This document shows, piece by piece, positions 1,679 through 62,133 of a stretch of 64,000 bases of DNA. Every line of letters begins with the position of its first letter. Positions within the stretch are counted from its first letter, which is position 1. The stretch comes from Lunularia cruciata (taxonomy: Eukaryota > Streptophyta > Marchantiopsida > Lunulariales > Lunulariaceae). The stretch is taken from contig OX419756.1 in NCBI GenBank assembly GCA_948567375.1, positions 44,654,333 through 44,718,332 of the forward strand, given 5' to 3'. The translations under genes were made by a program, and so were the position numbers. Under the pieces are notes generated by a model. It had not been told where the DNA came from, made no database searches, and was given only the letters and a program-made list of their open reading frames with translations.

Positions 1679-1769
1679 AAATTTTCAGCTTTTCTCGATG
1701 ACCGGCAGTCTTGGTAGGGCAGTCCTTCGCCAGATGAGTTACTCCTCCACACAGCTTACAGCATCCTCC
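1679..1769 (-). CDS. ZCCHC9: Exon 5 of the zinc-knuckle gene: knuckle 5
   Basis: Ninety-one bases encoding GGC, then C-KL-C-GGVT-H-LAKD-C and PTKTAGHREKLKI, ending in phase 1 before a GTGAGT donor at 1678. It is too short to show up as an ordinary open frame. The double Cys before the last knuckle and the GGVTHLA segment are family hallmarks. The following exon, which should carry the C-terminal tail, was not found in 1-1678. Confidence 0.88.
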
Positions 1770-22700: not shown

Positions 22701-25700
22701 ATGAGAGAACCTACTTGATGCTTGTGAGCTGTGATACAAAGAGAGAGGTCTAGTATTGCAGTAGTGATGTCTGATACATCAGAGATAAGAGGGAGTGATA
22801 GACCTTCCACTTCAAAGAGTAGGAAGCATGGTTCTTATCACAGTAAAAGGTTTGAGGCTATTCAAGATGAGCTTCAGCCCATGGAGAACAATCAAACATG
22901 GGTCATCACTGAGTTACCAGCAGGTCGCAAGGCAGTCACCTGTAAGTGGATTTTAAAGAAGAAATCTGATGCACAAGGCTTGATCCAAAGGTACAAGGCT
23001 AGACTTGTTGCTCGTGGTTTCTCTCAAGTTCCAGGTATTGACTACACAGAGACCTACTCTCCTGCTGTCAAATTGACAACAATTTGCGTGCTGCTTGCTT
23101 ACTCAGCTCAGAATGATTTGGAAGTGCATGCTCTTGATGTCAAAACAACTTTTCTCAATGGCACATTGACTGAGAAAATATATATGCACATTCCTCCTGG
23201 CTTGCTGACTCCTGACCAGCACAAGCAGCAACAAGCCAATAAACAAGGGCAATTGGTTTTACAGCTCTACAAGGCTTTGTATGGTCTCAAACAATCTGCC
23301 AGACAGTAGTATCACAAGTTTGATCAGGTTTTACTAGGTTTGGGATTTGAGCGCTCTGGAGCTGATTCTAATCTCTATATCTTCCATTCTGGTTCTCATT
23401 TTGTTATCTTACCTCTTTAAGTAGATGACTGCATCCTTGCCAGCAATAATCTTTCTCTTCTCCTCTCTGTCAAAGAGTCTCTTAAACAGGGTTTTGAGAT
23501 GACTGATCTGGGAGAGATTAGTCATTGTCTTCAGTTGCAAGTCACAAGAGACAGAAAACAAAGAAAGATCAGTCTATCTCAAGAGAGATATTTAAGAGAG
23601 ATTCTTCCTCGTTTTCATATGCAAGACTGTAAACCTGTTTACAATCCTGTAGAGTCAGGAGTGAGATTAAGTCTTCAGGATTGTCCAAAAACTGATCAAG
23701 AGAGGGAGTATATGAAGACAGTACCTTACCAATCTGCAGTGGGGAGTTTGATGTGGGCTATGGTCAGCACCAGGCCTGATCTGGCTTATGCTGTCAGTTC
23801 AGTTGCCAAGTATATGGCAAATCCTGGCCTGAACCATTGGAAGGCTGCCAAAAGGATTTTCCGGTACATTCAAGGTACACTGTCACAGGGCCTAAATTAC
23901 AGTGCATCTAGTACTCCCATTCATGGGTATTCCGACTCAGATTGGGGAGGAGATCAAGACACAAGAAGATCTACAGGAGGATACTGCTTTATCTTCTGTA
24001 ATGCAGCTGTCTGTTGGTCAAGCAACAGGCAAGCTTCTGTTTCTTTATCCAGCACTGAAGCTGAATACATGGCCTTGTCAAAGGCCGTGACTGAAGCAGT
24101 ATGGCTTAAGCGCTTGTTAAGAGACATGGGTTTTCCTGGAGAAACAATGGAGCCGTACTGTGACAGCAACAGCGGAATCGATCTTGTTACTCCAACAAAG
24201 CAGCATGAGAGAACAAAGCACATAGACATCAGATTCCACTTTGTCAGAGAAAAGGTGGAAGACAAAGAGATCTCTGTCTTCCAGGTGGACACCAGAGATA
24301 ATACTGCAGACATTTTTACTAAAGGGTTGACTAGAGAACTGCATACAAAGTTTTGTCATGCACTAGGAGTTAGAGATAATAGACAATTACAAAACATCCA
24401 TTAAGAGGGAGTTTTAGATATAATGAAGCGTTTTGTGCTTTACGTTAGATTACTGTTCACTATTACTATTCACATATTACTATTCAGACGTTAGACTACT
24501 GTAGGTAGCTAACGTGCATAAGTTACTTTAAGTCAGTTACCCTGGCACAGCTCTTGTTCCTCTCGAGCTTGCCCATGCACCTACCTATATAATCCCAGTT
24601 TCTGGGATTGTTTGTGGTTCTAACGATCCCCTGTTTACATCACATTTTTCTCACAAATGTCAGCACCCCTTGTACCGAGTTTCGGTTCAAAAGCTCATGA
24701 GTGCAGTGACAATACTCGATATTAGGAGATGAGAGCAGAAGCCATTCAAGGAACGGGGCATCCAGAACTCATCAAATGCATATGAAGCGCATATGACAGG
24801 TAACCAAGATATGCTCAAACAGAGAAGAGTGATAAATCCGTAAAGTAGATGAAGTGAACGTAACAAAACGAATGTAACCTGCAGCAAAGGCATGATAGCA
24901 ACATATCGAGACAACATATATAAAGAACTAGTAAGCGACGTGTATTCGTTAAAACCGATGCAACATAAGTCGAGAAATATGATACATTTGGTAATCGACC
25001 TACCTACAAGCAACGCTTGAAGGATGAAAGTAAGCTAAAGTCTGGAGTCGGGCAGGAACCTTGAATCTCAATTACTGTTCGCTAGCAGATAATAATTGAG
25101 AGGGAATTAGTTGACGGGAGGAGTGGAGCTATGCATGAGCGGAGTGTAAATCGCAACATGATCTATGAGCGCATGAGATCCCCAATCACTAGACACTAGA
25201 AGAAAGCAGTCATGATAAGCCTGTTCGCAAGCATTCACAAGAGACATTTGAGCATTGCAAAGAGAGATATATAGGAAATGAGAAGCCGTTGGTAGAAAGA
25301 GGGATCCACACTCACTTAGGACTGAAAAAATGCTAACCGAACCAGTGCAAACCTAAACAAGTAAATTCACGCAAGACCGGATGCGAACCAAAGAATGCTG
25401 ATCTAAGCAAGTAAATGCATGCAAGTCTAAGCAAGTAGAAATTGAGAAAAACACACTATCCAAATCTATGCAAACCAGCAGCGAAGATTGATAAGGTCCA
25501 TGACCATCCTATGGCATTCACTATCTAGAGTAGTATGCAGCCTGACTTGGTGAGCAATGCGACCCGAAAAAGCAGAGGATGCAATTCAAAACAAAGGGAA
25601 ACCATCGAGCAAGTAGGAAACATAGTTTACTGGGTCGTAGATGGGTAGTAGCGAACTGTGATAGGACTGAATATGAGGATATGAGAGCAGAAGCCATTCG

Positions 25701-29830: not shown

Positions 29831-29976
29831 GAGTTTTGAGGATACCGAGCAAGTGGTGGTGGTGGAGAGAAAGAGGAGTGTTGATTTTCGGAGCCGTGGA
29901 TGAGTTGAGAAAGCCGTTACGGAGGCGGAGAAGATATCACTGTAGGCAGGTTTGTACGCTTAGCGGAGCTACATTT

Positions 29977-31281
29977 ATGGCCGTCATAAAGCCAGAGGAA
30001 GAGGCTGATTCTCTGGCAGTCCCAATAGTTGCTAAAAGCACAATGCCGACGGGCACGTCATTACCCCTAATTCAATCGCTCATTTGGTTAGAAACATTCG
30101 ATGGAGCTGTGCATGGAGTCGAGCGTGAGATTACCATGCTATGCCCACTTCTTCATAGAGAAGTTTTGCAAAACAGTCAGGGGATCTCTAAGAGATCCGC
30201 CATCGTTCTTCCTAGTCAAGTTGGACCTAGCATTCTTAAACTTATTCTTGAATACTGTCGCTTCCATCAAGTCCCAGGTCGTTCGGATAAAGAACGTAAA
30301 ATGTTTGATGAGAAATTCATCAGGCTCGACACCAGAAGGTTATGTGAGCTAGCTTCAGCTGCAAAAAGCCTCGATATGAATCCTCTGGTAGATTTGGCAT
30401 GCCGAGCCCTTGCGAGAATGATTGAGGGAATGACCCCCGAGGAGATGCGTGAGACCTTCCATCTACCCGACGATCTCACAGAAGAAGAAAAGTTAGAGCC
30501 TGTCAAAATCACAACTGACGATCCGCGTATTAGATTGCTTAACCAGCTCTATGCGAGAAAGCGGAGAGCATTGCAAGAAAAGAAACGGCGGAAGGACGAA
30601 GGAGCGTCCGCGGGTCAGAGTAGCGCAACAGATGATGGGCACAGGGACGAAAGGTCTGTAGATGATCTTCTATCATTTATTGACGGTAGTGGTCGAGATG
30701 GAAAGGGAAGTAGGAGAGGCAAATCAAAGAAGAAAAGGAACAGGAGGAAGAAGGAACAGGCTAAGGACGCTAACTTGGTTGAAATTCCTGAAAATAGGAC
30801 ACAGAGTACGCATTCTACAAATGATACTCGACAGTCAGCTGATGATTCCAGGGACTGCCAAGGAGCTAAGGTTATTGGGGAAACAGAAATTGCCACAGAC
30901 GGAGGGTTGGGATATGATTCTGCTGAATTTGACGACGAAGAGGACGACGGCTTGGATCCCGAAATGAAAGAGAAACTTGACAGGGAAGTGGAAGATTTTG
31001 CTAGACGGCTCAACTCTGGTTGGCCTGATCGAATACAAGAGATCCTTGCGCTTGCTTCGTCTAGCCAAGAAAGGAGTCGTAACAATTCCCCACAGTCATC
31101 CAAGTTGGCTTCGGGACGCGAGTCTGATTCATGTTGTCGCGAGCCTGTCAACATTAGGGATGAATGTTCTCGAGAATCTACGGTTCATAATGGGGTTAGT
31201 GAGGAGACCCAGAGGAGTACTCCAGAGGCACAAGCATCACAATGTAAGTTTAGGCTCACTGAGGCCCCCTCACAAAAATAA
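29977..31281 (+). CDS. ASK21: SKP1-like protein, ASK20/21 type with long C-terminal extension
   Basis: SKP1 proteins link F-box proteins to cullin-1 in SCF ubiquitin ligases. This 434-residue product begins MAVIKPEEEADS. It has a SKP1 BTB/POZ region at about 36-100 (IWLETFDGAVHGVE, LKLILEYCRFHQVPG) and a SKP1 dimerisation region at about 118-178 (PLVDLACRALARMIEG, FHLPDDLTEEEKLEP). Classical SKP1 ends soon after that point in WAFE. Here instead comes the plant ASK20/21-type extension: DPRIRLLNQLYARKRRA, RSVDDLLSFIDG (226-237), a basic KSKKKRNRRKKE patch (249-260) and the conserved DREVEDFARRLN (335-346). The start at 29977 is preferred over the in-frame 29836 ATG because the 47 extra residues are Trp/Arg-rich translation of the purine tract. 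The coding region has no intron. The last 13 codons may be intronic (see the donor at 31244). Confidence 0.93.
   Translation: MAVIKPEEEADSLAVPIVAKSTMPTGTSLPLIQSLIWLETFDGAVHGVEREITMLCPLLHREVLQNSQGISKRSAIVLPSQVGPSILKLILEYCRFHQVPGRSDKERKMFDEKFIRLDTRRLCELASAAKSLDMNPLVDLACRALARMIEGMTPEEMRETFHLPDDLTEEEKLEPVKITTDDPRIRLLNQLYARKRRALQEKKRRKDEGASAGQSSATDDGHRDERSVDDLLSFIDGSGRDGKGSRRGKSKKKRNRRKKEQAKDANLVEIPENRTQSTHSTNDTRQSADDSRDCQGAKVIGETEIATDGGLGYDSAEFDDEEDDGLDPEMKEKLDREVEDFARRLNSGWPDRIQEILALASSSQERSRNNSPQSSKLASGRESDSCCREPVNIRDECSRESTVHNGVSEETQRSTPEAQASQCKFRLTEAPSQK
31244..31249 (+). other. Candidate splice donor near the end of the SKP1-like reading frame
   Basis: CAAT|GTAAGT is a perfect +1 to +6 donor 38 bases before the stop. 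A possible acceptor TTGAAGCAG ends at about 31556. Splicing would replace the last 13 codons with a two-residue ending and a stop. Transcript evidence would decide. Confidence 0.4.
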
Positions 31282-38789: not shown

Positions 38790-39130
38790 TGTAATACTCC
38801 GAGGACAAGAGAACTCTCCAAGAGAGATATGAGAGAGAAAACATAGTTTCACACTCAATACTCTGATGCCCCAAAGGAGCACCTTCTCTTTATTATATAG
38901 CAAAGAGGATCCCCTCAAAGGAAGCTCCACCCTTCGATCAGATACATGGATTGGTGACCTGTCAACAAGCTCCATCCTTGGATTAGTTGTTTGGATGGGT
39001 GACTTGTCAATCCTTGTCCTTTTGGTGATACCTTTTTCTGATATTACTAGCCTGTTGTACACAACATACTTCTAGATGTTACCAAGCTAATTTTCACCTC
39101 CAGATAATATGTCTAGCTACTTGTATTATA
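38790..39130 (-). repeat. Gypsy 3' LTR (341 bp, internally deleted)
   Basis: Begins TGTAATACTCCGAGG on the plus strand and ends TTGTATTATA. Compared with the other LTR it lacks about 200 bp after CTTGTCC. The lost terminal CA is now TA. Confidence 0.9.
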
Positions 39131-39146
39131 GACCTCCCCCTTTTAA
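39131..39146 (-). other. Gypsy polypurine tract
   Basis: On the minus strand TTAAAAGGGGGAGGTC directly abuts the 3' LTR, a textbook PPT. Confidence 0.9.
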
Positions 39147-40527: not shown

Positions 40528-42780
40528 CTACAATTTGTGGATTAGTTTTTTAGCAGCAAGAATCTTGGGCCAGAATTTAGGGTTCATCTTGACTTCCATG
40601 ACCAAATTTTTTGCCATCAGCATTTGGCTGAATGCATCTACAAGTTGCTTCTTGCCTTCCACATATTTGATTGTCATGTTGAATTGTTGTCTCCACTTTG
40701 CACACCAAATTGACAAGAAAGATCTTTCTATGTCTTGAGGTAGACTAGATGTTTGTGGTCTATCTCCACCACAAATGCCTTCTCACTCAGATAATGCTTC
40801 AAATGCTTGGTTACAAGGACAATGGCAAGCTCTTCTTGTTTGATGGTGTGATAGTTGCATTATGTCAGTAAAAACTCACTAGAGACATATGCAATTGGGT
40901 GCAATCCATCCTGCCATTCTTGTTGTAGGCTGCTCCTTGTAATGTTCCAAGGTTAATAGAGAGACACAGAAGAGAAAACACACAAGTTTCACACTCAGAG
41001 CTCCAATGCCCCAAAGGAGCACCTTCTCTTTATTATATAGCCAAAGAGGATCTACTCCAAGGAAGCTCCACCCTTGGATCAGATACATGGATTGGTGACC
41101 TATCAGCGAGTTCCACCTTTAGATTAGTTGCTTGGATGAGTGATATGTTGGTCCTTGTTGTATCTGACTGGTCAAACATGTTTTGACCAAAGGGAATCTT
41201 TAGGGAATCTTCTTGTAGGAATCTCATAATCATGTGGGTGAGGTACCATTGGAAAGCTCCCATTGAGACAAGCTTGGGGAAGGAAGGCTAGCTTTTCCTC
41301 TATTGGGAGGAATCTGCACATTTTTTAGGCCTAATTCATTTGTTTAGGCTTCCAAAATTGCCTAAGGCATATTTTGGCTTTTTCCCTATTAGTCAAAGTA
41401 CTCTTTTGGTGATACTTCTATCTGATCTACTTATTCCATCATGTGTAATATCCTTCCAAATGTTACCAAACCAAATTTCACCTCTAGATCATATGTTTAG
41501 CTATTGGTTCTAAGGTTTTCAAGCATATTTTGGTTTCTACCCTATTTGTAGAAGTAACCTTTTGGTGATAGCTCTATCTGATCTATTTAGTACATCATGT
41601 ATAACATCCTTTCAGATATTACCAAACCAAATTTCACCTTTAGATCATATGTCTAGCTATTGGTATTACACTCCTCTTGCTACACTTGATGCATTTATAG
41701 CCATCTTGATTGGATGTTTTGGGTCATACCCTTGCAAGATTGGTGCATGTAGTAATGAGTCTTTCAACTCTTGAAAGGCCAATTCCTATATGGTTCTCCA
41801 TATCCACTTCTTCCCCTTGCCCAATAGTGTTGTTAGAGGCTATGCAATCTTGGAGAAGTCCTTGACAAATCAACAATAAAACCACATCAATCCCGAGAAA
41901 CCCTTGAGTTGAGTCTGATCTTCTAGAGCATTACATTTGATAATGACCTCTACTTTATCTGTTAAAACTTGGATACCTTTTGCACTTACTCTATGCCCTA
42001 AGTAGTCTACTTCAGATTTGCAAAACTTGCACTTTGAGATTTTTGCATACAATTGATTTTGTCATAGAATCTAGAGGACTTCTTGCAAATGTTGCTTGTG
42101 CTCTATTAGTGTCCTACTATAGACTAGGATGTCATCAAGAAAAATGATAATAGATTTATCCAAGTATGGATGAAATAGGTCATTCATCAAACTTATGAAA
42201 GTGGTTGGAGTGTTGGTGAGGCCAAATGACATCACCAAATACTCAAAGTAACCACATATTGTTCGAAAGGCTGTTTTGTGTATGTCTTCTTCTGCAATTC
42301 TAATTTGGTTGTAATTGCTCCGCAAATCAAGTTTGGTGAAGTGCATTTCCCCATTAAGTTGATCAAACAAGTCATCCATGCAAGGTAATGGATGACTTGA
42401 TATTTTTTCTTCACTGTTTGTTGATTTAGTCCCCTGTAGTCAATGCACATGCACATTATTCCGTCCTTCTTCTTCACAAACAATACGAGAGCCCCATATG
42501 GTGATACGTTAGGTTGGATAAACCCCTTTTGCAACATATCCTCAATTTGAGCCTTACACTCCTCCAACTCATGAGGTGATAGTCAATATAGGGCCTTACA
42601 AGGAGATGTCTTCCTAGGAAGTATCTCAATTTTATGATCTACTCTTCTTTTTGGTGGTAAACCTACAAGTAATCCATCCAAAAAGACATCTTGGAACTCA
42701 TTGACCACATCTTTCAATTTCTCAAGAATTTGTCTATTGTGTTGGGCACTCTGGACTTCTCTTAGTGACCCATGAAACAT
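40528..42780 (-). pseudogene. Gypsy reverse transcriptase and RNase H (decayed)
   Basis: On the minus strand: LPPKRRVDHKIEILP, then [35 protein letters not shown] and CIDYRGLN. A frameshift lies near 42385; then [30 protein letters not shown] and the catalytic FLDDILVYS at about 42120-42150. YLGHRVSAKGIQV follows near 42010. RNase H (KMAINASS) is split by the solo LTR and its end reads KYVEGKKQLVDAFS. Catalytic DD is preserved but the frame is broken several times. Confidence 0.9.
40939..41670 (-). mobile_element. Nested solo LTR (732 bp) inside the gypsy RNase H
   Basis: Termini TGTAATGTTCC...GGTATTACA match the host element's LTR family. It is flanked by a perfect 5-bp duplication CTCCT (40934-40938 and 41671-41675). 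An internal block (TTTTGGTGATA...CTATTGGT) is present twice in tandem, roughly 41405-41510 and 41570-41665. RNase H coding sequence resumes on both sides of it. A solo LTR arises when two LTRs of an inserted element recombine. Confidence 0.93.
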
Positions 42781-43499: not shown

Positions 43500-44358
43500 G
43501 GAGAGGTCTTGCTCCTTGGTCTCAAAACCAAATGTTGCCCAATTCCATAGGAACTGGTCCACCAAAATGGTGTGTCTCAGCCCAATAATTTTGCATCAAT
43601 GTTATCACTTCACCTTCTTCAAGCACCCTTGCTATTCTTTGAGTACAAACAATGGCTTCAAAAACCATATGAGGATTTTGCATTATTATTTCTTGGCAAA
43701 TCCGCTCTTTCAATCCTCTCTTGAAATTATCAAAAGTCTTGGCTGGACTCAAATTGGTTATTGCAACTTGTAGATTTAGAAATGCCTCCATGTACTCTTG
43801 TATGTTATTCTTCTGCTTCAACCTCCAAAGTCTGGTTCGGGCTATTTGCATGGAATCCACAGATTGGAAATTCTTGAGCAGCCTTTCTTGCATGGCTGTC
43901 CAAGTGACCTCTCTTCTTTCTACCAGCAATGATCATTCCCAAGTGTCATACCATGTGAGGGCTTTATCGGTCAAGTACCCACATGCAAACACACCTGTAG
44001 AATGATCAGTGATCTCCATTATAAACAATCAAAGGTATCAATTCATTCTTGAAATCCAATTTTCTACTTCTCCCATGGAATATTGTCCCTTGTAAGGCTA
44101 GATATTGCACATTTTTTTCATTTGTAATAACAGTGTGGCTTGGTTATTGATTGGAATCGGTGTCATCAGCATGCATAACTCTCTAAGTACTTTGATTATT
44201 GGTGTTGGTTGTTGAAATGAATCTCCTTCTTGCATTACTTGATCATTTTTGACAATATATATTTGATTTTGCAATTCCTTCATGGTCATCTTGATTTCTT
44301 GAAACTCGCTCAACATCCCTTGCATTCCTTGCATCAACTCTTGCAATTGAGGATCCAT
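43500..44358 (-). pseudogene. Gypsy gag (decayed)
   Basis: Starts MDPQLQELMQGMQGML at 44358 with a coiled-coil-like N terminus. Retrotransposon gag landmarks are EVENWISRMN, DKALTWYDTWE, EVTWTAMQERLLKNF and a C-terminal region ending VPMELGN. The frame is constant, but stops (one TAG, three TGA) interrupt 43915-44097. No zinc knuckle was recognised after it. Confidence 0.85.
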
Positions 44359-44940: not shown

Positions 44941-44952
44941 ACTTTGATACCA
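44941..44952 (-). other. Gypsy primer binding site
   Basis: On the minus strand TGGTATCAAAGT starts one base after the 5' LTR, matching the initiator Met tRNA with a few changes. Confidence 0.85.
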
Positions 44953-44953
44953 T

Positions 44954-45501
44954 TGTAATATTCCAAGGACAAGAGAACTCTCCAAGAGAGATACAAGAGA
45001 AAACACAATTTCACACTCAATACTCAGTTGCCCCAAAGGAGCACCTTCTCTTTATTATATAACAAAGAGGATCCCCTCAAAGGAAGCTCCACCCTTGGAT
45101 CAGATACATGGATTGGGTGACCTATCAATCCTTGTCCTATCTAGTTGGTCAAATAGGTTTGACCCAAGGGAATCTTTAGGGAATCCTCCTATATGGAGCT
45201 CAAAATTACATGGGTGAGGTACCATTGGAAAGCTCTCAATGAGACATATCATATGAGGAGAAAGCAAGCACATTTCTTGTGAGGGAGGATCTTTCTATTT
45301 TCAAGGCCTAATTCATCCGTTTAGGCCTCCAAAATTGGCTCTTAAGTTTTCAAGCTATTTTGGGCTTCTACCCTATAAGTAAAAGTATTCTTTAGGTGAC
45401 ATATCTGTCTGATCTTCCTAGCCCATTGTACACAACATCCTTCTAGATATTACCAAGCCAATTTTCACCTCCAGATAATATGTCTAACTACTTGTATTAC
45501 A
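44954..45501 (-). repeat. Gypsy 5' LTR (548 bp)
   Basis: TGTAATATTCC...TTGTATTACA on the plus strand. It contains TTATTATATAAC (a possible TATA region when read on the minus strand). It is the full-length reference for this LTR family in the window. Confidence 0.93.
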
Positions 45502-45506
45502 GGTAG

Positions 45507-49520: not shown

Positions 49521-50636
49521 GAATTTTAAGAATAATTGGTCAAGACTTGCAAGTTAAGCCTTTGAATAATATTTTGGTTGTTTTATTTGTCTTATAATCC
49601 ACATCATCATTTTAATTTGGAGGATGATAATGGGTTTTTGTTATAGTGATTTGGTATATAAAAAAGGAAGAGTGACTTTTAGAATTATCTAGGCACCACA
49701 CCATATTTTATTTTTTAGAAGTCTTTGTATAAATACAAGGTACATCCTCACTACTTTTTGTCTTAAGATTTTGCCTTCTACTTTGATATAAAAGCATAAA
49801 AGGGATGGATGTAGTGTATTGTAATGTTTAACATTTACCTCCAAATAATTGGGATCTTTCCATTTGTCATTATATTATTATGATAGTTGTATTATTTTGA
49901 TTCTTTCAAGTCCAACCTTTTCATAATAGTATTGTCTTATAATATTAAGATTAAAGAGTAACTATAACTCTTGGTGTGAAAATGTAATAATATGGAGTTA
50001 TCAAAGTTTAATAAGTTAAGTGAAATAAGCCATATATAACTAAGAACTCTATAAATATTTTAGAAGCATCTAGGAAGCTTCTTGATAGAATAATATAGAA
50101 ACACATAAGAAACTTCTTGGTGTGAAGCTTCTAAGTGCCTTCCAAAGATTGAGTAACTTTCATATCAAGTTACTTGTATGCCAAGTAGATGGCCACTAGA
50201 ATGAAGCATCCTTATAAGCTTCTTGGGTATCTTAGCTTGCATTCAAAGAAGGTGGTTTTGAGAAGAAAGCTTCTTGGGAAGCTTCTCAACGGCACTTGTA
50301 TTGTTTCACTATAAATACCAAAGCCTAAACTCATATTACATATTTGGAGTTTCCTTCATTAGAGCATTTCCAATGTTACTTCTTTTCTCTTATTCTCTCT
50401 TGTCTTTTGCCATATATTAGTGCAATATTCCAATATGAGAAACCTAACTTTTATATGATGGACAACAGATAAGTGATATAATAGACTTTAATTGTTTACT
50501 TAAAGAGAGTGAAGATATAAGAAGACCAATGTTATGTAGATGTGGTTATTATTGGTTGTAAAAAATATTTATATACCTTAGTTGCATGATTTCAAATATA
50601 GATATTTAAAGTAAGGATATTTTATGTCATGCTATT
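49521..50636 (+). repeat. Probable LTR-end remnant with promoter-like box
   Basis: Follows the pol remnant where its 3' LTR would be. It contains several AAGCTTC-rich repeats (for example GAAGCTTCTTGG) and ACTATAAATACC at about 50310, like an LTR promoter. The part at 49520-49700 resembles 37320-37500. No coding sequence seen. Confidence 0.4.
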
Positions 50637-52467
50637 TGTAGTGTCGCATCTAAATTGCTCAGACATTGGAGTTGCAATGATGGTAGTTAGATGTATTTTA
50701 GCAGTTTCCCATAGACTACTTTCCGACGGTCAGATTTTTTGTTTGGGGTACTAACTTCACGGTGGAGCCCACCGTCACTTTGCACCGTTTGCACCATCAA
50801 GTGTGCCATCAGCGGGACTATTAGGGTTCCAGACCTAGCTCAAGTCCAAGGTATACTTTTGAAGTGCAGCACCATAGAGCTCACTTCTCTAATGTTGAGC
50901 CTTTGAGTTCTTGGCTATGGTGGATAGAGGCCGACAAGCATCACCTAAATTCTCTTAGCTAGAGTGGATGTGGCTTGACTGTAATCAATACCCAGTTGTT
51001 GGCAATTTATAGAGTGAAAAATCAAGTGCTGATCTGAGTTGAGTTGATTTGAGAGTAATAAACAATCTGATTACATCAAAGAAGTGAAGTTAGGGAGAAA
51101 TTGGGTGTAAGAACTTTGAGTGTTGGTGGTATCTCCAAGCTCAGTGGATCGTTGGTAGGTCGATTGAAGTTCATTTTTCCTTGGTGTGCAGGAACTCGTT
51201 GCTTGATGTAGATTTGGTAGTAAGATAGTCAATGTGCAGAAGCGTTGGCCAATTTTTGAGCAAAAAAGAAGTAATTCTTGAGCAGTGGTTGTGATTTTGA
51301 GCTCATGAGGTGAAGGTAGGACCAATTTGTTGCAAGTTGTGCTCAAAAAGTGAAATTGAAGGTGAAGTTGAGAACACACCTTTGTGAATTTGTGATTTGG
51401 AGAGACCTATTTTTTCAATTTGGCTCAAGTGAAGAGTTAGCAGAGGATTTGGTGGTCAGCCAACTTTAGGATTTACATCAAGTTTTACGTCAAGGTTTTG
51501 CTGGAGTTTATGTTAGATTTTGGCCAGATTTAGAGGAGTTGTGCTATTTTGGAAGAGTTTCGTAAGTTTGGAGGAGGTTCAAAATGGCAAGAGGAAAGGC
51601 CTCATTTGGCTGAATTTTGGTGTTTAGAGGCTTCAAGGCATAGAGCTGTGAGCTATGAGAGGCTACGAAGGCCTATAAGGGCCAGCAAGGCAGCTTGCTA
51701 GCATGAGGCTAGCTAGTTTAGAGTAGATCTTGGTCATTGTGTGGCAAAATCTGCCCATCTTGCTTGTGTGCAACAAGGTTTGACCTCTAGATTTCTTGTT
51801 CCTAGATTGGTGCCTTAGCCAACTGGTCCACCCTCACTTGTTGTCCTAGTGATTGTGCCACTATTATGTACACACTTGTAGCTTTGGTTAGGAGATGCAA
51901 TTTGATCCCATTCTTGGTGATCCTGGTAGCTTAAGACATAGATACAAACTCCTCTTATGTCAAATGCCAAATGGTGGTAGAGCCAGTCCCACGTTGCTTT
52001 GTGAGATAGAAGGTTTTGTTTAGATTTCTTGTGATTGGACCTCCTCCATTCTATGCTTCCTGTTTGTGCACCATGATTGTGTGAGGTGCCCTGACTTTTG
52101 AGCGTTGGTGCTTTGGTGTGCTCTTGGTAGTGAGGTTGGAGTGATGACCAATCAGACTACCTTTGTTTCTCTCCTGTGAAGCAAGAAGTGAATACATACC
52201 ATGAGAGTGCGTGTTGTGATGCCAGGTTACAAGCTGCCTATTCCCCTAGTGTAGTTATCTCAGTTAGAGTTACATTAGTGGGTGGTATTCCATGGTATTA
52301 GCACTTGGTGGTGCTCAATTGGTGTTGGCATTTGGTGGAGTACTTGCACTTGCAATTTGCTGTTACAATTTGTGGTTGCAATTGCGGTTACTTTGTCACA
52401 ACAGAGTTCTTATGGGATTCTAGAGGAGCTAGCCTTGTAGTAAATAGTGGGTTTACTCAAAGTGGCA
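50637..52467 (+). repeat. Long 5' LTR (about 1.83 kb) of the methyltransferase element
   Basis: Begins TGTAGTGTCGCATC and ends GGCA two bases before the PBS. The same sequence, at perhaps 70-80% identity by eye, recurs inverted at about 62133-59360. The ends are inferred from TG...CA and the PBS, since no second LTR in the same orientation is present. Confidence 0.65.
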
Positions 52468-52469
52468 CT

Positions 52470-52479
52470 TGGTATCAGC
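52470..52479 (+). other. Primer binding site of the methyltransferase element
   Basis: TGGTATCAGC matches the start of the initiator Met tRNA complement. The same motif sits at the equivalent place in the inverted copy (59353-59344, minus). Confidence 0.75.
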
Positions 52480-52483
52480 TTTA

Positions 52484-53830
52484 TCTCAAGTCCTAGTGAG
52501 GGAGGAGATTGACTTTGAGTTGGAGTTCGACACAAGAGTTGATTCAGTTGAGAGTACACTTGGCATGTTTGCACCGTTATTGTGGGATATGGACAAGATT
52601 TATGGGGCCTCCAAAGGCCCTATGTGTTACTTTGGTAAAATGGGTACCATTGAGTTGGATGACTTCATCCATGAGTTTGATAGTTGGTGTGATCTATAAC
52701 AGATGTGGAACCTGACTTTGTTTCCACCCTTCATGGCATGGAAGGGGTTGTTTAGCATTTGGAGGGTCCGCCGATGGACAACTACTATGAGTTCAAGAGA
52801 GCTTGTTTGGAAGATATTGAGTTATGGAGACAATATTGGTCTGTGAACTATGTCTCTATCACTTTAGGCTTGGTTGCCATGAGTAGATTGGCTATACTCA
52901 CGAGCTCTAGCTTGAGTAGTGTTGGTGGAGCTAGTGGAGGTGCACTAGCTGGAGATAGTGCTACCACAAGTGGAGGTACCACTGTAGGAGGTGGTGTGGT
53001 ACAACATTTTAACCCCATGGTGGAGTTCTTCCAGTGTTTGAGGCAGAACTACTAGGGAGTGCGGATTGACAAGCTGAGGAGCTTGTAGGAGTTCAAGCGG
53101 AAGGCTAGAGAGAGCCTATGCGAGGCATACACTTGCATGAGGCGATTGATCAGTTTCACTCAAGGAGTAACTAAGGGCCAAGCATCCCAATTTTGGTATG
53201 GGATACTAGATAAGGAGTTATGACATAGAGTTCATGATGCTATGTTGTTACAAGCTACTTCATCCACTTTGGCAATGGTCTTTGGTTTGGCTTAGCGTAT
53301 TGAGCTCAACATGGTGGAGGAGAGGGTACTGACATCTAGATTTGGTAGGAAGACCTCATCCACAACTGTTACTTCTTCTAGAGTGCAGTAGAGTGCACCA
53401 CACCTAATTGGTTTTTGAGGACAAGGTGGACAGCCCAGATCCTATGGAGCAAGTGGAGGGCCTAGTGGAGCTAGACCCTTACCTTCATTTTCAAGTAAGA
53501 AATAGCCAATGAGTGGTGGTGTTGCTTGTTGGACTTGTGGTGGACCTTATCATAGGAGAGAGTGTACTCAAGATAACAGACCTAATACCTCTGGTGCATC
53601 ACAGCCAACACAAAGACATTGTGAGCATTATCACGGATTTGGTCACACTAGTGACTAGTGCTTTGACCTACACTCGGAGTTATGGAGTGGTAGAGCTACT
53701 ATGGAAGGTAGTAGAGGAGCTCCATTTCATGGAGGACAAGATGGTAGAGGTGGTGGTAGAGGATCTATACCTAGTAGAGGTGCGGTGCGGTACCTGCCCT
53801 TACTTCTGATACAGCTATGGCTACTCAGAT
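52484..53830 (+). pseudogene. gag of the methyltransferase element, with two zinc-knuckle-like motifs
   Basis: Recognisable stretches are MGTIELDDFIHEFDSWC (52648-52698), then, after a frameshift near 52720, EGPPMDNYYEFKRACLED. From 52759 one frame continues to about 53810 with eight stops, each TAG or TGA. It covers FKRKARESLCEAYTCMRRLI and QFWYGILDKEL, as in retrotransposon gag, and a knuckle C-WT-C-GGPY-H-RRE-C (53527-53565, one residue shorter than canonical). A second motif C-EHYHGFG-H-TSD follows near 53620-53660. The tail is Gly/Arg-rich, like an RNA-binding gag end. Confidence 0.75.
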
Positions 53831-54212
53831 TGAGCAGTTGGAATAGAGATTGGCTAGTATGGTTATTGCTCAGAGGAGATCAAATTCGGGTGTTGAGGCT
53901 TCCACCTCATATGTTGGTGATAGAGATGCTTTGGACTTCATGTGTAGAGCAGCACAGGTGGATGCATTTGTAGTAGTGACTAGGAGTGCATTACATGCTC
54001 CAGAGCCTAGAGGAGCATCAATGGAGTTGGACCCACAAAGAGGAAAGGTTGGGAGACAGGTCAAACTTCCCTAGTCTTTCATACTATCTATGGCGTCGTA
54101 GATGACATCCATGGCTCCTAGACGTCCCAATGCAAGTGTGGTAGGTGGTGATGGAGTGCATGATAGACTACCTATTAGTCAGCTACCTACTACTATATAG
54201 ACTGAGTCTAGC

Positions 54213-55180
54213 ATGATGTTGGAGGCGGCTCAACTGATTACGCGGTGCCCTTTGTTTTTAGCCAGTGACATGTTTACATTGGGAGTTGACCCAACCTTAG
54301 TGTTCCAGTTGGCTGCCATGCTTTGTGAGAGTAAGGATGATGCGGTTCCTACTACTAGAGCAGAGGTGGTTGATATTGGAGTTGACTTGGTTGAGGAGTA
54401 TGGGATCTGTTCAGTGACCAATAGTTTATGGCAAGCAGTAGTCGCTAGACTGGATGAGTTGCCAACTAGACCGACATTTGAGAGGCATGGTTCACACCTA
54501 GTGTTGTCCTATTGGATAACCAAAGGGGGGTTTTCTGTTTGGTGGGACCTTTAGGGAAGGTCTATACACCACATAGAGTCTTGTTCGACTTTGGTGCATA
54601 GCCTCTTATGTTGGGAGAGGCTGCAGTAGTCAATATGGAGTTACAGAAGACCAATGTAGAGAGGTGTTGATTTCAAATCCAAACATCTCTAGGTGGTGGT
54701 TTGACACAATACATCACACATGGGGAGCTTGTTGTCTAAGTTCAACTTGGTCATCCGATTGATAGCTTGGTGGTGAGAGGTCAGGCTATTGTGACAATAG
54801 CTAAGTCATATGATGTGCTAGTTGGGGGAGCAATGTTATACCCTATGGGTTTCAACATTGACTATTGGGAGGAGAAAACCTCCTATAGACTAGGTTGGCA
54901 ATTTGGTGAAGGACGGGTATGTTGCCTACCAGTATGCTTTAGTAGTGGTAGTCTTGGCTCACTACAGTCCGAGACCATGGAATCATTAGTTTTAGCTTTC
55001 TGTGGTGCAGTTACTTGGCCTGGTGACTTGTTGGAGTGGAATGCACATGTAGAAGATACTCCAGTACTAGAAGAGATCACTCAAATTTGGAGTACAAGTG
55101 AGATTGTTCCATCCACCTTGGATATTCCATTGTGGAGTTCAGAGGAAGCATTGCCGCACCATGCAGATCAGTTGGTGCAA
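54213..55180 (+). pseudogene. Retropepsin-like region of the methyltransferase element
   Basis: A helical linker (LEAAQLITRCPLFLASDMFTL) precedes a segment in which RVLFDFGA (near 54575-54600) occupies the place of an active-site LxDxGA motif. The usual Ser/Thr is replaced by Phe, and LMLGEAAVVNMELQKT follows in frame-shifted sequence. The region then reads AKSYDVLVGGAMLYPMGF (54800-54853), resembling the C-terminal part of a retropepsin. Stops and frameshifts are present at 54540-54770. The inverted copy preserves the same segments. Confidence 0.6.
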
Positions 55181-55249
55181 TAAGCTTGGAGTGGAGCCTT
55201 CATACCATCAAGAGATGAGTGTGAGGATGAGCCTCTAGAGTCGATTACT

Positions 55250-56228
55250 TTGACACCTTTGGATACCACACTCATTGCTTGGCAGTATCTAGTAGAGGAG
55301 ATATGTCTATTGGAGTTGTTCAGTGGGATTAGCACCAAACTACCTACATTATTATATGCAGGTATACAAATACAGAGGTACTTGTATGTGGAGAGAGATG
55401 AGAATGCTAAACGAGCCTCTCTACATCATGTGGCACACTTGGCCTATCGGTATCCTAAGTTATTACCAATATCAGCAGTCAGAGGTTACCAAAAAGCCCT
55501 ACCAACAGATATTTCCTTACTAGGGGTGCATGATCTAGAGAGATATGGGTCTATTCACTTGGTGATTTTTGGATGGCCATGTTAGGGACATACACGTGCT
55601 GGCTGAGGTTTGGGTCTTCAAGATCCTTGTTCTAGTGTGTTTTGGGAGATGTTACGGATACTACAATATCTCTAGGTTTATCAGTCCATTTGTCCATCTT
55701 ACATTTTGGAGAACGTTCCTTTGATGGGTGGTTCTTGTACCTCAAGTGGTGGAGAGTACACATTAGGTCCATTCTTAGATAAGACCTATTGTTTTGTTAG
55801 ATGCAGTGAGAGTGGGATCACAAGCTCATTGTCTTCATCTTTGGTGGACAAACCTCTTACTCAAAGAGGTTTTATAGTGTGCTTATGATGGGATTCAATG
55901 ACTTGACCACATCCTTGTTGATGATATCTTGGATGTTGGGCGTCAATCTTAGATAGTGGTAGTGGCTAATAGGTCACCTATGGTAGTGGTGAACCTTGTT
56001 GGACAGCCTAGAGCCACTTTTCCCACACTTATGAGTTTCACAAGCTCCCATGCTTTTTGAGAGGGAGGTCCTAGACTGGTTTGGGACTCACAGTTATAGT
56101 AGTTGGTGGAGTCCAATGCCGATGAGAGAGAGCAAGCAATGGGTTTTTGCATCAGTATTACCACTATTCCAGCAGTGTCAACCAAGAGTCAAGTGTTAGA
56201 TCAGGCTATGGACTTGAACTTTTTGACC
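55250..56228 (+). pseudogene. Cytosine-5 DNA methyltransferase domain carried by the retroelement (broken)
   Basis: Motif order is that of C5 methyltransferases, which methylate cytosine in DNA using S-adenosylmethionine. Motif I is LLELFSGIST (55307-55336); motif II is YVERDENAKRAS (55385-55420). Motif IV is VIFGWPC (55562-55582), followed by TAG where the Gln of PCQ belongs, then GHTRAG, TGA, GLGLQDP. Motif VI is LENVP (55706-55720). After a frameshift between about 55741 and 55800, motif VIII is VGSQAHCLHLWWTN (about 55815-55856) with His/Cys where QxRxR arginines belong. Motifs IX-X are DEREQAMGF (56121-56147) and DQAMDLN (56199-56219). Length, about 310 codons, fits a catalytic domain. 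In-frame stops (TAG 55583, TGA 55604, TAG 55673, TAG 55875 and others) are all TAG or TGA. It is dead in this copy. No target-recognition specificity can be read. Confidence 0.88.
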
Positions 56229-56632
56229 TGAATTGTGAGCCTTGGCTTGGCAGAGCAACGGAGGATATGCTTATTAGGTATCACCACTTGGACACTTGTG
56301 AGTTTTGTGCCTATCAAGATGATTCAGGCACATATTGGGAGTGATGGTCTAAGTGGACATGGTATTCATGGGACATAGCCAATAGCTACTAGGGAGAGTG
56401 GTCTTACTTGGAGTCCATCCAAGTGAGCATGGGCTACTTAGATTACACCCTTGGTCCACTTGGGATGCAGCTAGAGGACATGTGGAGCTTGCAGCCAGAG
56501 TGGAGGGAGTTTTTTACACCCAACCTCTAGTGGTCGGGAGCAAGACACAACTGCTCCCAAAGGTCTAGTGTAGCAGCCAGTCAGTATGTCTTCTACTCCT
56601 ACAATAGTTATAGAGGATACTTGGGAGCCAAT
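56229..56632 (+). pseudogene. Polyprotein segment after the methyltransferase, unknown
   Basis: Continues the methyltransferase reading direction with stops of the same TAG/TGA kind. Visible pieces are HHLDTCEFCAYQDDSG and MGYLDYTLGPLGMQLEDMW. I do not recognise it. Reverse transcriptase would be expected later but is cut off by the junction near 56632. Confidence 0.5.
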
Positions 56633-57280
56633 TGCTACAATGCCTCCTCAAAACTCCACAATGGAACATCCAAGGTGGATAGAACAATCCCACTCATACT
56701 CCAAATCCAAGTGATCTCCATTGGTATTAGGGTTAGTGATCTCTATTGGTATTGATATGAGTGTTCCACTCCAATAAGTCACCAAGCTAAGTAACAAAAC
56801 TGCTAAAAGCTAAAAGTGATGCCATGGTCCTTGATTGTAATGAGCAAAGATTACTAATACTAAAGCACATTAATAGGCAACATATACTCATCCCTCACTT
56901 GACTACCAACCTGCCTATAGGAAGTTAACTCCTCCCAATAGTCAATATTGAAACCCATGGGGTATAACACTACTCTACCAACTAGCACCTCATATGACTC
57001 TACTATTGTTGTAATGGCTTCAGTTCTCACCATAGAGCTATCAATTGGATGATTGGGCTGAATTTGAACAATGAGCTCTCCACATGTGATGTATTGTGTA
57101 GAAGTAAAATCTTAAAGATGTTTGGATTTGAAATAGACACCACTCCGCATCAATTTTTCATAGCCCAAGATCACCAACTACGACCTTCCCCAACATAAGA
57201 AGCTTCACATTAAAGTCTAATAAGACCTTTTGTGGTGTATAGACCTTCCCCAAAGGTCCTACCAAACAAAAAATCCCACT

Positions 57281-57707
57281 CTAGTTGTCCAATATGACAA
57301 CTCCAAATGTGGACCAAGCTTGCTCAAAGGTAGGTCTAGTTGGTAACTCCTCCAACCTAGCTATTGTTAATTGCCATAAACCATTGGTCATTGAATAAAT
57401 CCCATGCTCCTCAACCAAGTCATCTCCATTATCAACCACCTTTTCTCTAGAAATAAGAATCACCTCATCCCTACTCTCACAAAGTGTGGCAACCAACCGG
57501 AACACTAGAGTTAGGCCGACTTCCAATATAAACAACCATGTCATTGGCTAAGAACAAAGGGAAATGCATAATCAATTGAGCCGCTCCTAACATCATGCTA
57601 GACTCAAGTTGTGTAATAGCTAGTGGTTGATTAGGATCTAATCCATCATGTGCTCCATCACTATCTACCACATTTATATTATGACATCTAGGAACCATAG
57701 ATGTCAT
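57281..57707 (-). pseudogene. Inverted copy: linker and retropepsin-proximal segment
   Basis: The minus strand encodes SSMMLGAAQLIMHFPLFLA, then a frameshift near 57545 and FRLVATLCESRDE, LVEEHGIYSMTNGLW and LEELPTRPTFEQ. These match the plus-strand copy at 54213-54490 residue for residue in many places. Confidence 0.75.
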
Positions 57708-57719
57708 TTACAATGCCTT

Positions 57720-59340
57720 AGAGATTGTGAAAGACTAGGGAAGTCTAACTTGTCTATATGTCTCTCTTCTTTGTGGATCTAACTCCACTAATGCTCCTCT
57801 AGGCCCTAGAGCACATATTTCACTCTTAGTCATTATGGCAATGCATCTACATGTGTTTGCACATAAATTCTAGGACATCTCTATCACCAATATAAGAGGT
57901 GGAAGCCTTAACTACAAATCTGATTTCCTCTAAACTATGGCCATGTTAGCCAATCTTTGCTCCAATTGCTCAATCCAAGTAGCCATGGTTGTATTAGAAG
58001 AAAAGGTAGGTAATAGGCTCCTACCAAGTGTAGGTCTTCTACCACCACCTCATCCTCCATGACCTAGAGCTCTTCTACCACCTACCATAGCAACCCTACT
58101 ACTTTGTAATTCCAATTGAAGGTCAAAGCATTGATCACTAGTTAGTGCAACCAAATCTATGGCAATGGTCACACCGTCTTTATGCTTGTTGTGATTCACA
58201 AGAGGTATTATGCCCACTGCCGTGAGTGCACTCTCTCTTGTAGTGAGGTATACCACAAGTCTAACAAGCAACAACACCATTCATTGGCTATTATGGACCC
58301 AAAAATGAAGGAAAAGGTTTAGCTACACTAGGCTCTCCACTTGCTCCATAAGATCTAGGTTTTCCACTCTACCCTTGGAAGCCAACACAATGTGGTGCAC
58401 TCTACTACACTCTAGAAGAGGTAACAACTATACATGAGGTCTCCCTACCAAATCCAAATGTCACCATTCTCTCCTCCACTATGTTGAGCTCAATGCACTC
58501 AACCAAACTAAACCATGTTATGTTGCTGGATATCCTAAGGTAGCCTACAAAAACATAGCATGTACTCTAAGTTGCAACTCATTATTTAGGATCCCATACC
58601 AAAATTAGACTACCTGGGCATTATTTACTCCCTAAATGAAATTGATTAGTTATCTCATGCAAGTGTATACCTTGTGTATGCTCTCTAGCCTTCCATTAGA
58701 ACTCCTACAAGCTCCTTAGCTTGTCAACCCATACTCTTTGGTAGTTCTACCTCAAACACTAAATGAACTCCACCATGGGGTTAAACCCTAGTACTATACC
58801 ATCTCTTCTAGTGACACCTCCACTTATACTAGCACCATCTCTAATTATTGCACCTCCAATAAAACTACTAGTGCTAGAACTCATGAGCTACATCACCAAT
58901 GCTACTAGAGCTAGAACTTGTGAATATTTTTTATCTACCTTTAGAAACCAAGCTTGAAGTGATAGAGATGTAGTGTAGAGACCAATATTGTCTCCACAAC
59001 TCAATCTCTTCCAAGTAAACTCTCCTAAACTCATGGTAATCATCCATCAACAGACCCTCCAAGTGTTGGAACAACCTATTCTATGCTATGAAAGGTATAA
59101 ACAAAGTTAGGTTTTGCATCTATTGAAGATCATGCCAACTATCAAACTCTTGAATGAAGTCATCCAACTCAATGGAACCCATTGTATCAAAGTAGCATAT
59201 GGGGCCTTTGAACGTCCCATAAATCTTATCCATATCTCACAACAATAGTGCATACACACCAAGTGCACTCTTAACTAAATCAACACCTATATCAAACTCT
59301 ATATTAGAGTCAATCTCCTCCCTCATTGAGACTTAAGATA
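57720..59340 (-). pseudogene. Inverted copy: gag remnant
   Basis: The minus strand retains pieces matching the plus-strand gag (for example the MGSIELDDFIQEFDSWHDLQ-like segment near 59110-59180 and the poly-Gly/Ser/Thr segment near 58770-58890). Stops and frameshifts are more frequent than in the plus copy. Confidence 0.7.
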
Positions 59341-59359
59341 CAAGCTGATACCACCACTA

Positions 59360-62133
59360 TGTGTAAATCCACTATGTACTATAGCAATATCTCCTTTGGA
59401 ATCTACAAAGAACTCTGTTGTGACAATGTATAACTCAAACCACAACCATAACCATCACAAGTACTCCACCAAGGATCACCACCAAGTGCTTCCACCAACT
59501 AAACACCACTCACTAATAAAACTCTAATTGTGAAATGACACTAAGGGAAAAAGGAACATGTAACCTACCATCATAACATGCACTCCACAATCTGTAGGTC
59601 ATCACTTCTTGTCTCACTAGAGAGAAAGATAAGTAGTTTGATTGGTCATCACTACCAAGAGCACACCAAAGCATTAATGCTCTAAAGTCAAGGTACCTCA
59701 CACAAACATGGAACACAAACAATAAGTAGAGAATGGAGGGGATCCAATCACAAGAAGTCTAAACAAAAACTGTTTGTCTCATAAATCAACACTCTATTAC
59801 CATTTGATATTTGATATAATAAAAATATCTATCTATCCCTAAGTTACTAAGATCACCAAGAGATCAAACTACCTCTCCTAGCTAAAGCTACATGTGTATA
59901 AGTATTACTTGACTAGTCATTAGGACGAGTGAAGATAGATGAGTTTGCTAGTGTAATACAATTAGCTAGACATATTATCTGGAGGTGAAAATTGGCTTGG
60001 TAACATCTAGAAGGATTTTTTTTACCATGGGCTAGGAAAATTGGACAGAGGTGTTACCAAAATAGTACTTTTACTAATAGTGCAAAAGCCAAAAATAGCC
60101 AAAACAACTTTAGAGCCAATTTTGGAGGCCTAAACGGATGAATTAGGCCTCCAAAAATAGAAGGATTCTTCCTCCCCTTGTAAATATATTAGGCTTGCCT
60201 TCTCCTCCTTATGATTTTTCTTATCAAGAGCTTTCCAATGGTACCTCACCCATGCAATTCTAAGCTCCTTACAAGAAGATTCTCTAAAGATTCCCTTTGG
60301 TCAAACTTGTTTGACTAACTAGATAGGACAAGGATTGACATGTCACCCATGCAAACAACTAATCCAAGGATGGAGCTCGCTGACAAGTCACCAATCCATG
60401 TATTTGATCCAAGGGTGGAGCTTCCTTTGAAGGGATCCTCTTTGCTATATAATAAAGAGAAGGTGCTCCTTTGGAGCATCGGAGTATTGAGTGTGAAACT
60501 TGCATTTTCTCTCTTGTATCTCTCTTGGAGAGTTCTCTTGTCCATGGAGTATTACAATTATGCACTAATCTACAATCCAAAGATTTTGGGTTCAAACCTT
60601 GCTGCACACAATCTAGAAAGGTGTGTGGATTTTGCCAAACAATGACCAAAAGCTCATCTAAATTGGCTAGCCTTTTGCTAGCCTTTTGCTAGCATTTCTA
60701 GCTCTTTGTAGCCTCTTTAGCTCATAATCCTATGCCTTGAAGCCTTTAAACACAAAATTTTAGCCAAATGAGGCCTTTCTTCTTGCCAATTTGAACCTTC
60801 TCCAAATCTATCCAAGCTTCATCAACTCAAGCACTAGCTAGGACAATTCATGAAACCTCTAACTCTAGATAACCTTTGCCAACATGACCTCTAAATCTTG
60901 ATAACCTTTGCTAATCTGACACACCTCTTCTATAGTTGGTTGATCACCAAATCCTCTGCTAATTATCAACTTGTGCTTAATTGAAAGGATAGGGATCTCC
61001 AAATTCCTATTTTGAGGAGATGGGTTTCCCAAATATTTCCCAAATATTTCCCAAATCTACCTCCAATTTTGCTTCTCAATTTTATTTGCAACACCAAGGC
61101 TTTTGATTTTACTCTCTTGCACTCAAATTAACATCTATTGATTCAAAATTGACCTCAATTTTGAGAAATGTGTGCAATGCTTCCACGCATTGTTTACCTC
61201 ACTACCAAATATGCATCAACTCAAGCAAGGCTTCCGCACATGATCACTCTCAAGGAAATCTAGAATCACAATCAAATATACCAACAATCCACCAAGCTTA
61301 GAGATACCACAAATGCCTTCTATTCCTTGCTACTATCAACTTGGGCTGAATTGAGGAGATGGAAATATCTAAATGTTTAATTCAAGGAGATAAGTTCCCA
61401 AATCCACCTCCAATTTTTCTTCTCAAGTCCAATTCATAACAGCAAGGCCTCCCTCTAGTTTCACTCTCTTGCCTTCAAATTGACATCCACTAACCCAAAA
61501 TTGATTTCAATTTTGAGAAATTTATGCCACACTCATGCACATTGTTTGCTCCATTGCCAAATCTGCATCAACTGAAAAATTGCTTTTGCACATGATTAAT
61601 CTCATAGAAATCAAGAACTAGAATTGAATATACAATGATCCGCTAAACCTAGAGATACCACCAACATCCTTAGTTCTTGTATCCAATTCTCCTTCACTCT
61701 CATGTCTTTGATGTAATGAATCCACTCTTCCACTCAAATCACACTTGAATTGGATTTAAACTTGATCCTCCACTCAACATCTGCCAATAATTATGCACTA
61801 ATTTCAATCAAGCTATACTCACTCTAGCAAAGAGATTCCAAGTGATGTTTATTGGCTTTTGTCTACCATAACTAAGAACTCAAAGGCTCAACATCAAAGA
61901 ATTAAGCTTTCTAGATATACACTTCAAAATAGTACCCCTTTGCTCAACTTAAATCACCAACCCTAATGGCATTATTGATGATGAGACTGTGCAATTGACA
62001 ATGGGTCCTACCGTATGATCAATAGCCTTAACATGAAATTTGGTATCAAGTAGTCCATGAGCAACTACCACAATAACTATGACTACCAACACTACCACTC
62101 CAATGTCCAAGAAAATTAGCTTTGGTGTTGTAA
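59360..62133 (-). repeat. LTR of the inverted copy (with an LTR inserted in it)
   Basis: Shares GTTGAGCCTTTGAGTTCTT (near 61890), GGCCTCATTTGGCT (near 60765) and CTTGTGATTGGA (near 59745) with the plus-strand LTR at matching distances once the 605-bp insertion is removed. The outer end is placed by comparison with 50637. Confidence 0.7.
59952..60556 (+). mobile_element. Solo LTR (605 bp) of the gypsy family, inserted in the inverted copy's LTR
   Basis: TGTAATACAATTAGC...GGAGTATTACA. It is the same LTR family as 44954-45501 but in the opposite genomic orientation. The host LTR sequence continues on both sides (CTAGCAAACTC and ATTATGCAC). I did not find a matching 5-bp duplication, so it may have eroded. 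Confidence 0.85.

Follow-up and report, generated by a model that had tools for sequence, protein, structure and literature searches.

A dead Ty3/Gypsy-type retrotransposon copy with a DNMT3-class methyltransferase, and its young relatives in a liverwort genome

The window analysed here, a 64,000-nucleotide stretch of Lunularia cruciata DNA, very probably contains a dead copy of a Ty3/Gypsy-type family, Gypsy-Dnmt3, that carries a DNMT3-class cytosine-5 methyltransferase (MTase) and has young copies in the same genome, a reading in which we include the mechanism proposed below. The family is abundant and has been recently active in the source genome. The features of the window copy and of its older neighbour are as follows.

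50625-56630, plus strand: Gypsy-Dnmt3 copy, 5′ part only (A1 repeat, leader, gag, retropepsin (PR), MTase and the first codons of the RT frame), with 85% DNA identity to positions 67-6097 of family copy L016
50625-51073, plus strand: terminal repeat A1, starting with TGTC, 85% identical to the 449-bp A repeat of the family
50881-50894, plus strand: predicted self-priming site within A, which complements the primer site at 12 of 14 nt, placed by its offset from the start of A1
51074-51087, plus strand: predicted self-primer binding site directly after A1, based on complementarity to A
52344-53730, plus strand: gag region, matched by tblastn to pieces of ORF1 of copy L009, with a decayed CCHC-type knuckle at about 53620-53661 (the knuckle is present in L009)
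54336-55177, plus strand: retropepsin region, matched by tblastn; the family DSGA, as in L009, reads DFGA at 54587-54598
55292-56264, plus strand: decayed DNMT3-type C5 methyltransferase, from the Pfam frame match, tblastn and stop count
55310-55336, plus strand: motif I (LELFSGIST), read in the sequence
55571-55585, plus strand: motif IV GWPC, with a stop codon directly after the catalytic Cys, read in the sequence
55709-55720, plus strand: motif VI ENVP, read in the sequence
55800-55847, plus strand: motif VIII (DAVRVGSQAHCLHLWW), read in the sequence
56109-56144, plus strand: motif X (ESNADEREQAMG), read in the sequence
56571-56579, plus strand: in-frame TAG CAG CCA, a stop predicted to be leaky that divides gag-PR-MTase from RT-IN-PHD, from comparison of copies
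56633-62111, minus strand: older inverted family copy, tail to tail with the plus-strand copy, 75% identical to L016 1282-4614 plus 5′ parts, with its A repeat at 61760-62111

In line with the initial annotation, the C5 methyltransferase lies downstream of gag and a retropepsin on the same strand, and motifs that we take to be I, IV, VI, VIII and X follow one another in that order. The profile matches proposed for its two pieces were obtained for one of them: the N-terminal frame (55184-55804, stops read as X) matched PF00145 (DNA_methylase) with E=5.1e-4 and 20 bits, just below the Pfam cut-off of 22 bits, and the C-terminal piece (55795-56232) had no Pfam match. The short undisrupted ORFs of the domain, taken singly, likewise gave no Pfam match; NCBIfam returned dcm matches only, all far under cut-off, and another match of the MTase query (E=0.09) is noise. 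As a control, the domain queries were run against 200 first-order Markov resamplings of 50001-57000 and yielded two matches at E<=1, the best at 27.7 bits. A tblastn comparison with the MTase of a second copy in the source genome gave an alignment to the window at E=4e-133, over 55292-55741 (76.7% identity, three stops) and 55743-56264 (75.0%, nine stops), two pieces that stand in different frames. With 12 stops and one frame change in all, the window copy is inactive, as had been stated from the outset.

The plus-strand copy has no RT or integrase because it is cut at 56630 against the older inverted copy. That older copy gave no MTase match, and at the meeting point each of the two is interrupted at a different position of the element. 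The CpG observed/expected ratio is 0.21 in the plus-strand copy and 0.08 in the older one, compared with 0.46 for the corresponding region of a young copy and 0.69 close to a host gene; the low values in the window copies would fit prolonged methylation and deamination. Elsewhere in the window, several copies of a dispersed repeat, reaching about 600 bp in length, lie at 38790-39136, 40937-41676, 44952-45502 and 59950-60558, one of them inside the older inverted copy. A Ty1/Copia relic (19437-24404, plus strand) retains pieces of gag, integrase and RT, spread over separate open frames, and other retroelement fragments at 16444-17019 and 43522-43929 (both minus strand) comprise an aspartic protease and a Ty3-type gag. 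Diverged direct repeats are dense across more than 20 kb at 2800-26400, and an ORF at 29833-31281 (plus strand) that combines a Skp1 dimerisation domain with a long, charged tail is a probable host gene.

We then searched the source genome (566 Mb in 74 contigs, about 558 Mb of it in eight contigs of 60-85 Mb) for relatives, the copy numbers being lower bounds. PF00145 gave 123 scored places among 2161 candidates, with open frames of up to 1428 aa, and the window's own frame gave at least 150 scored places among 13285 candidates. Twenty long stretches were fetched and, because they were chosen for long open frames, are biased towards good copies; 18 of these 20 loci carry the order gag, PR, MTase, RT, RNase H, integrase and PHD finger, the exceptions being a stretch that begins at the MTase (L014) and a locus without a matched gag (L017). 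All nine further loci, taken from rows 2-4, 5, 20, 35, 50, 65 and 80 of the window-frame search, show gag, PR, MTase and RT in this order. RT lies downstream of the MTase on the same strand in 24/24 loci and PR upstream in 23/24, the last stretch being cut at the MTase; together with the nine further loci, this places the MTase inside the element, as initially proposed, and not in a host gene fragment. A full MTase row was obtained from 21 of the 24 loci, 11 of them without a stop. Since a PF00145 match and linked relatives were both found, the results run counter to the two outcomes named as fatal to the proposal: the absence of any profile match, or an MTase that never adjoins gag and PR.

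Pfam matches in the family ORFs comprise the MTase, RT, RNase H, the rve integrase core and the H2C2 finger, and a PHD finger closes the ORF in L009 and L013. The PHD finger was matched in 20/20 long loci, and its best PDB matches (best 60 of 106) include CHD4, PHF12, KMT2D, KDM5, KAT6A, ATXR5 and UHRF1. The element is about 9.93 kb long. The succession of gag, retropepsin, RT, RNase H and then a DDE integrase that marks Ty3/Gypsy elements is present in family copies, this assignment being based on Pfam matches and domain order; in the window copy, everything from RT on is missing. At one place (L016 with L029), an element has inserted into the 3′ portion of a second member of the family, flanked by the duplication TCTT.

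A PDB sequence search identified the MTase with the DNMT3 class: the first 29 of 54 matches were DNMT3A/B/C (E 1.1e-9 to 5.1e-4), followed by HaeIII MTase (8e-4) and then DRM2 (0.015). An AlphaFold2 model of relative P0054 (pLDDT 85.2, pTM 0.87) retrieved, among the best 50 of 220 Foldseek matches at E<=0.001, only DNMT3 entries, some of them DNMT3A-DNMT3L complexes. Motifs I to X of the element MTase are unrearranged, and so it lacks the order that defines DRM, with motifs VI-X before I-IV, which is present in the host DRM gene L002. By sequence and predicted fold the enzyme is thus of DNMT3 class, with a predicted activity. The catalytic Cys is found in 42 of 45 proteins (the other three have gaps) and the EN of motif VI in all 45, while the motif IV Pro is replaced by Glu in 16/45; among 21 copies from the source genome itself, PC and EN are each present in 21/21.

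Fifteen repeat pairs diverge by 1.8% on average (88 transitions, 11 transversions), and one pair is identical over 285 bp. For young copies retained for their absence of stops, pooled pN/pS was 0.40 for MTase, 0.35 for RT, 0.47 for PR, 0.46 for gag, 0.53 for integrase and 0.23 for PHD, against simulated neutral means of 0.70 (MTase), 0.56 (RT), 0.72 (PR), 0.76 (gag) and 0.63 (integrase) and neutral 5% points of 0.43 (MTase) and 0.34 (RT). These figures suggest modest selection on the MTase among young copies; a claim of strong purifying selection was weakened by the neutral simulation. Conservation across hosts appears to be the stronger argument: liverwort, Sphagnum and environmental elements, at 31-73% identity, retain both the domain and its catalytic residues.

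Two protein searches, each with about 8000 candidates scored, found at least 50 relatives in one case and 795 in the other (best 120 listed), most of them environmental proteins without an organism name. The named hosts are Marchantia polymorpha, M. paleacea, Riccia sorocarpa, Calypogeia fissa, Sphagnum fallax, S. troendelagicum and S. tenellum, and among named proteins those of Marchantia are closest to the element. Every named relative listed is a liverwort or Sphagnum protein, which bears out the suggestion of an LTR-type MTase element in a land plant. No vascular plant was among the named relatives listed, and no relative named as Klebsormidium was found (50 matches in one search, best 120 of 795 in the other), most matches being without an organism name. 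IMG/VR and bacterial and archaeal genomes gave 12 and 14 pattern stretches, respectively, none confirmed as relatives.

Among 50 mapped relatives, 22 (all named ones and seven unnamed) have PR followed by MTase without RT before it, and 13 have the order RT, RNase H, MTase, integrase and PHD; the others show partial or odd orders, two with MTase before RT. In a tree of 43 chosen rows, several of them typed from partial proteins and three of the four host rows filling less than half of the columns, all 39 MTases from elements fall into a single clade (support 100/100) that excludes host DNMT3, DRM and human DNMT3A, and the PR-MTase-RT type forms one side of a branch (86/84) among other element types. 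The source genome also holds host-like DNMT3 genes in exon pieces (L001, L004) and a rearranged DRM gene (L002). Because other elements carry the MTase between RNase H and integrase, the domain seems to have moved within the element, and a move towards the Gag position seems the simplest reading of the sequences if the root on the host rows is right. RT and MTase distances are correlated (Mantel r = 0.85 for n=22, 0.78 for n=16, and 0.63 for n=14 with two long rows dropped; 0/999 permutations each), and the deep branches of the two trees differ in part, P0048 and P0024 being placed elsewhere.

The two ORFs of the family are divided by one in-frame stop after the MTase. This stop reads TAG in 33/34 copies, the window (56571) among them, and TAA in the remaining one. 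It stands in the context TAG CAR YYA in 32/34 copies, and the frame beyond it is open for 129 codons in the three copies read. TAG CARYYA is described as the type I leaky stop of tobamoviruses and plant viruses in the portions of PMC5382211 and PMC2754532 consulted; UAG, CARYYA and an open frame being found together here, the family stop is predicted to be of this type I (TMV-type) kind. Proteins from Marchantia (P0002, P0007) and Calypogeia (P0056) and an environmental one (P0008) end at the matching place, as judged from the proteins alone. Marchantia models P0005, P0009, P0010 and P0012, by contrast, continue from MTase into RT with the region around the stop missing, perhaps as predicted introns. 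Since the leaky stop follows the MTase, the enzyme is predicted at the Gag level: the majority of ribosomes would end at the TAG, with Gag-PR-MTase as the major product and the RT-IN-PHD extension as the minor one.

The repeats have an unusual layout, A1(449)-body-purine tract-B1(106)-nn-A2-B2, with ends TGTC...GACA. In place of the two matching full terminal direct repeats of Ty3/Gypsy elements, A stands at the 5′ end and B-A-B at the 3′ end; the full A...B-A-B layout was recovered in 14/20 loci, four of the rest being cut by the stretch and two disrupted. An interpretation as simple 449-bp LTRs was rejected, as the two repeats precede different conserved sequence. A1 is directly followed by 14 nt that complement A 257-270 exactly in 15 of the 16 loci showing both sites, at 13/14 positions in L021 and at 12/14 in the window. 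A tRNA primer site, TGGTATCAGC near window position 52468, was also rejected, being absent from family copy L016. Target duplications of 4 bp, a fixed short length as in Ty3/Gypsy elements, flank 12 of 15 copies and are absent in L012, L019 and L020. The B1/A2 spacer is 2 nt in all 14 junctions that fit the pattern (13/20 loci; GC in ten, AC in three, GT in one) and longer in L012. The A2/B2 joint is clean in 16/17; that of L020 carries CATCA, 5 nt from the start of the primer site, as expected if it represents a joined cDNA end.

The split repeats and the 4-bp duplications suggest that the integrase opens a joined cDNA at the internal GACA-GC-TGTC palindrome, a circle-opening step read from the repeat layout itself. 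We propose that the element RNA would prime its own reverse transcription and, by retroviral logic, give a BA-body-BA cDNA, whose ends would be joined A to B and reopened by the integrase at GACA-GC-TGTC to give the integrated form. It is far less probable, in our estimate, that a tyrosine recombinase produced the split repeats as in DIRS, even though the layout is the same and a figure legend in PMC5890265 says likewise for KnitGypsy-Dnmt3; the scanned family ORFs contain the rve core and H2C2 finger and no match to phage integrase, setting them apart from DIRS, and 12/15 copies have 4-bp duplications. Packed with Gag, the MTase would methylate the element's own cDNA before or during integration, and the PHD finger may read histone H3 tails and thereby direct insertion. 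Copies methylated beforehand might then arrive silent or disguised, so that the host is spared or sensors of unmethylated DNA are avoided.

Methylation of the element's own cDNA is the likely role of the MTase. It seems unlikely, if by no means fanciful, that the enzyme instead targets the host genome or RNA: element copies are numerous, and DNMT3 enzymes act on chromatin, yet fusion to Gag-PR would locate the MTase to the particle. For dinoflagellates, the text of PMC5890265 (de Mendoza 2018) discusses consequences for the host methylome, and it also considers RNA methylation by LINE versions; against this, the same source reports a land-plant-like methylome in Klebsormidium, which has such elements. 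We regard it as improbable that the MTase currently has no role and is a passenger retained only through recent amplification; young copies show a modest selection signal, but conservation of the domain and catalytic residues across liverwort, Sphagnum and environmental elements argues against it. Scarcely credible is a chance juxtaposition of a host DNMT3 or DRM gene fragment with an unrelated gag/PR relic. Host-like genes of both kinds exist in the source genome (L001, L004; L002), but many copies have the MTase between PR and RT, the element MTases form their own fully supported clade, and they are unrearranged, unlike the host DRM.

Beyond own-cDNA methylation, we offer as a tentative proposal, somewhat less likely to be right than wrong as a whole, that land plants have long hosted a lineage in which a Gag-level DNMT3 marks the element's own cDNA, a chromatin-reading PHD finger sits on the integrase, a leaky stop sets the dose, priming is by the element itself, and a DDE integrase reopens end-joined cDNA at an internal palindrome to give DIRS-like split repeats, the MTase having moved from the Pol to the Gag level. 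An architecture like that of the Klebsormidium elements, abundant and young in the source genome, is also seen in Marchantia polymorpha proteins, and why a transposon would methylate DNA thus becomes testable in a genetically tractable plant. In addition, DNMT3 counts in bryophyte genomes need separating from transposon copies, and the repeat layout and leaky stop provide concrete, checkable replication features of such elements.

MTase-carrying retroelements have already been described from algae, and the occurrence in a land plant appears undescribed within the literature searched: titles and the beginnings of abstracts, a scope exclusive of subscription papers and supplements, gave no land-plant description of the Gypsy-Dnmt3 family. 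Nor did the parts of the literature examined contain an earlier description of the leaky stop after the MTase, the MTase move, the 14-nt self-priming complement or the A...B-A-B split repeats with 4-bp duplications. A passage of PMC12344493, citing de Mendoza, mentions LTR and DIRS elements with DNMT3 members in streptophytes and dinoflagellates, and an independent acquisition of Dnmt3 by Gypsy elements was inferred for the Klebsormidium lineage (de Mendoza 2018, in the text of PMC5890265).

Tf1-type self-priming Gypsy elements have a primer site complementary to their own repeat, as in Gypsy-Dnmt3, but differ in having no MTase and ordinary LTRs. Host-like DNMT3 and DRM genes (L001, L004, L002) encode C5 MTases of the DNMT3/DRM kind that fall in a clade separate from the element MTases, the DRM being rearranged. 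Environmental Gypsy-Dnmt3 elements (e.g. P0024-P0046) share RT, RNase H, DDE integrase, PHD finger and MTase clade with the liverwort family; their MTase, however, lies between RNase H and integrase in a single protein. The dinoflagellate SymbioDIRS-Dnmt3 and SymbioLINE-Dnmt are likewise retroelements with a cytosine DNMT, that of SymbioDIRS-Dnmt3 being active in yeast, but they are tyrosine recombinase or LINE elements, unlike the Gypsy family (PMC5890265, text as available). The closest published relative, compared here by its description in that source, is KnitGypsy-Dnmt3 of Klebsormidium nitens, for which a yeast test of the DNMT is reported in which methylation was not observed and from which the authors drew no conclusion (PMC5890265); the words ‘PHD’ and ‘Marchantia’ are absent from the main text of that paper. 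According to the same description, KnitGypsy-Dnmt3 and the liverwort family have in common the LTR Gypsy domain set, an intronless, unrearranged Dnmt3-class domain in the coding region and DIRS-like repeats, whereas the DNMT lies in the Pol polyprotein ORF of the former and in the Gag-PR ORF, before the leaky stop, of the latter (PMC5890265), and the host is an alga in one case and a land plant in the other.
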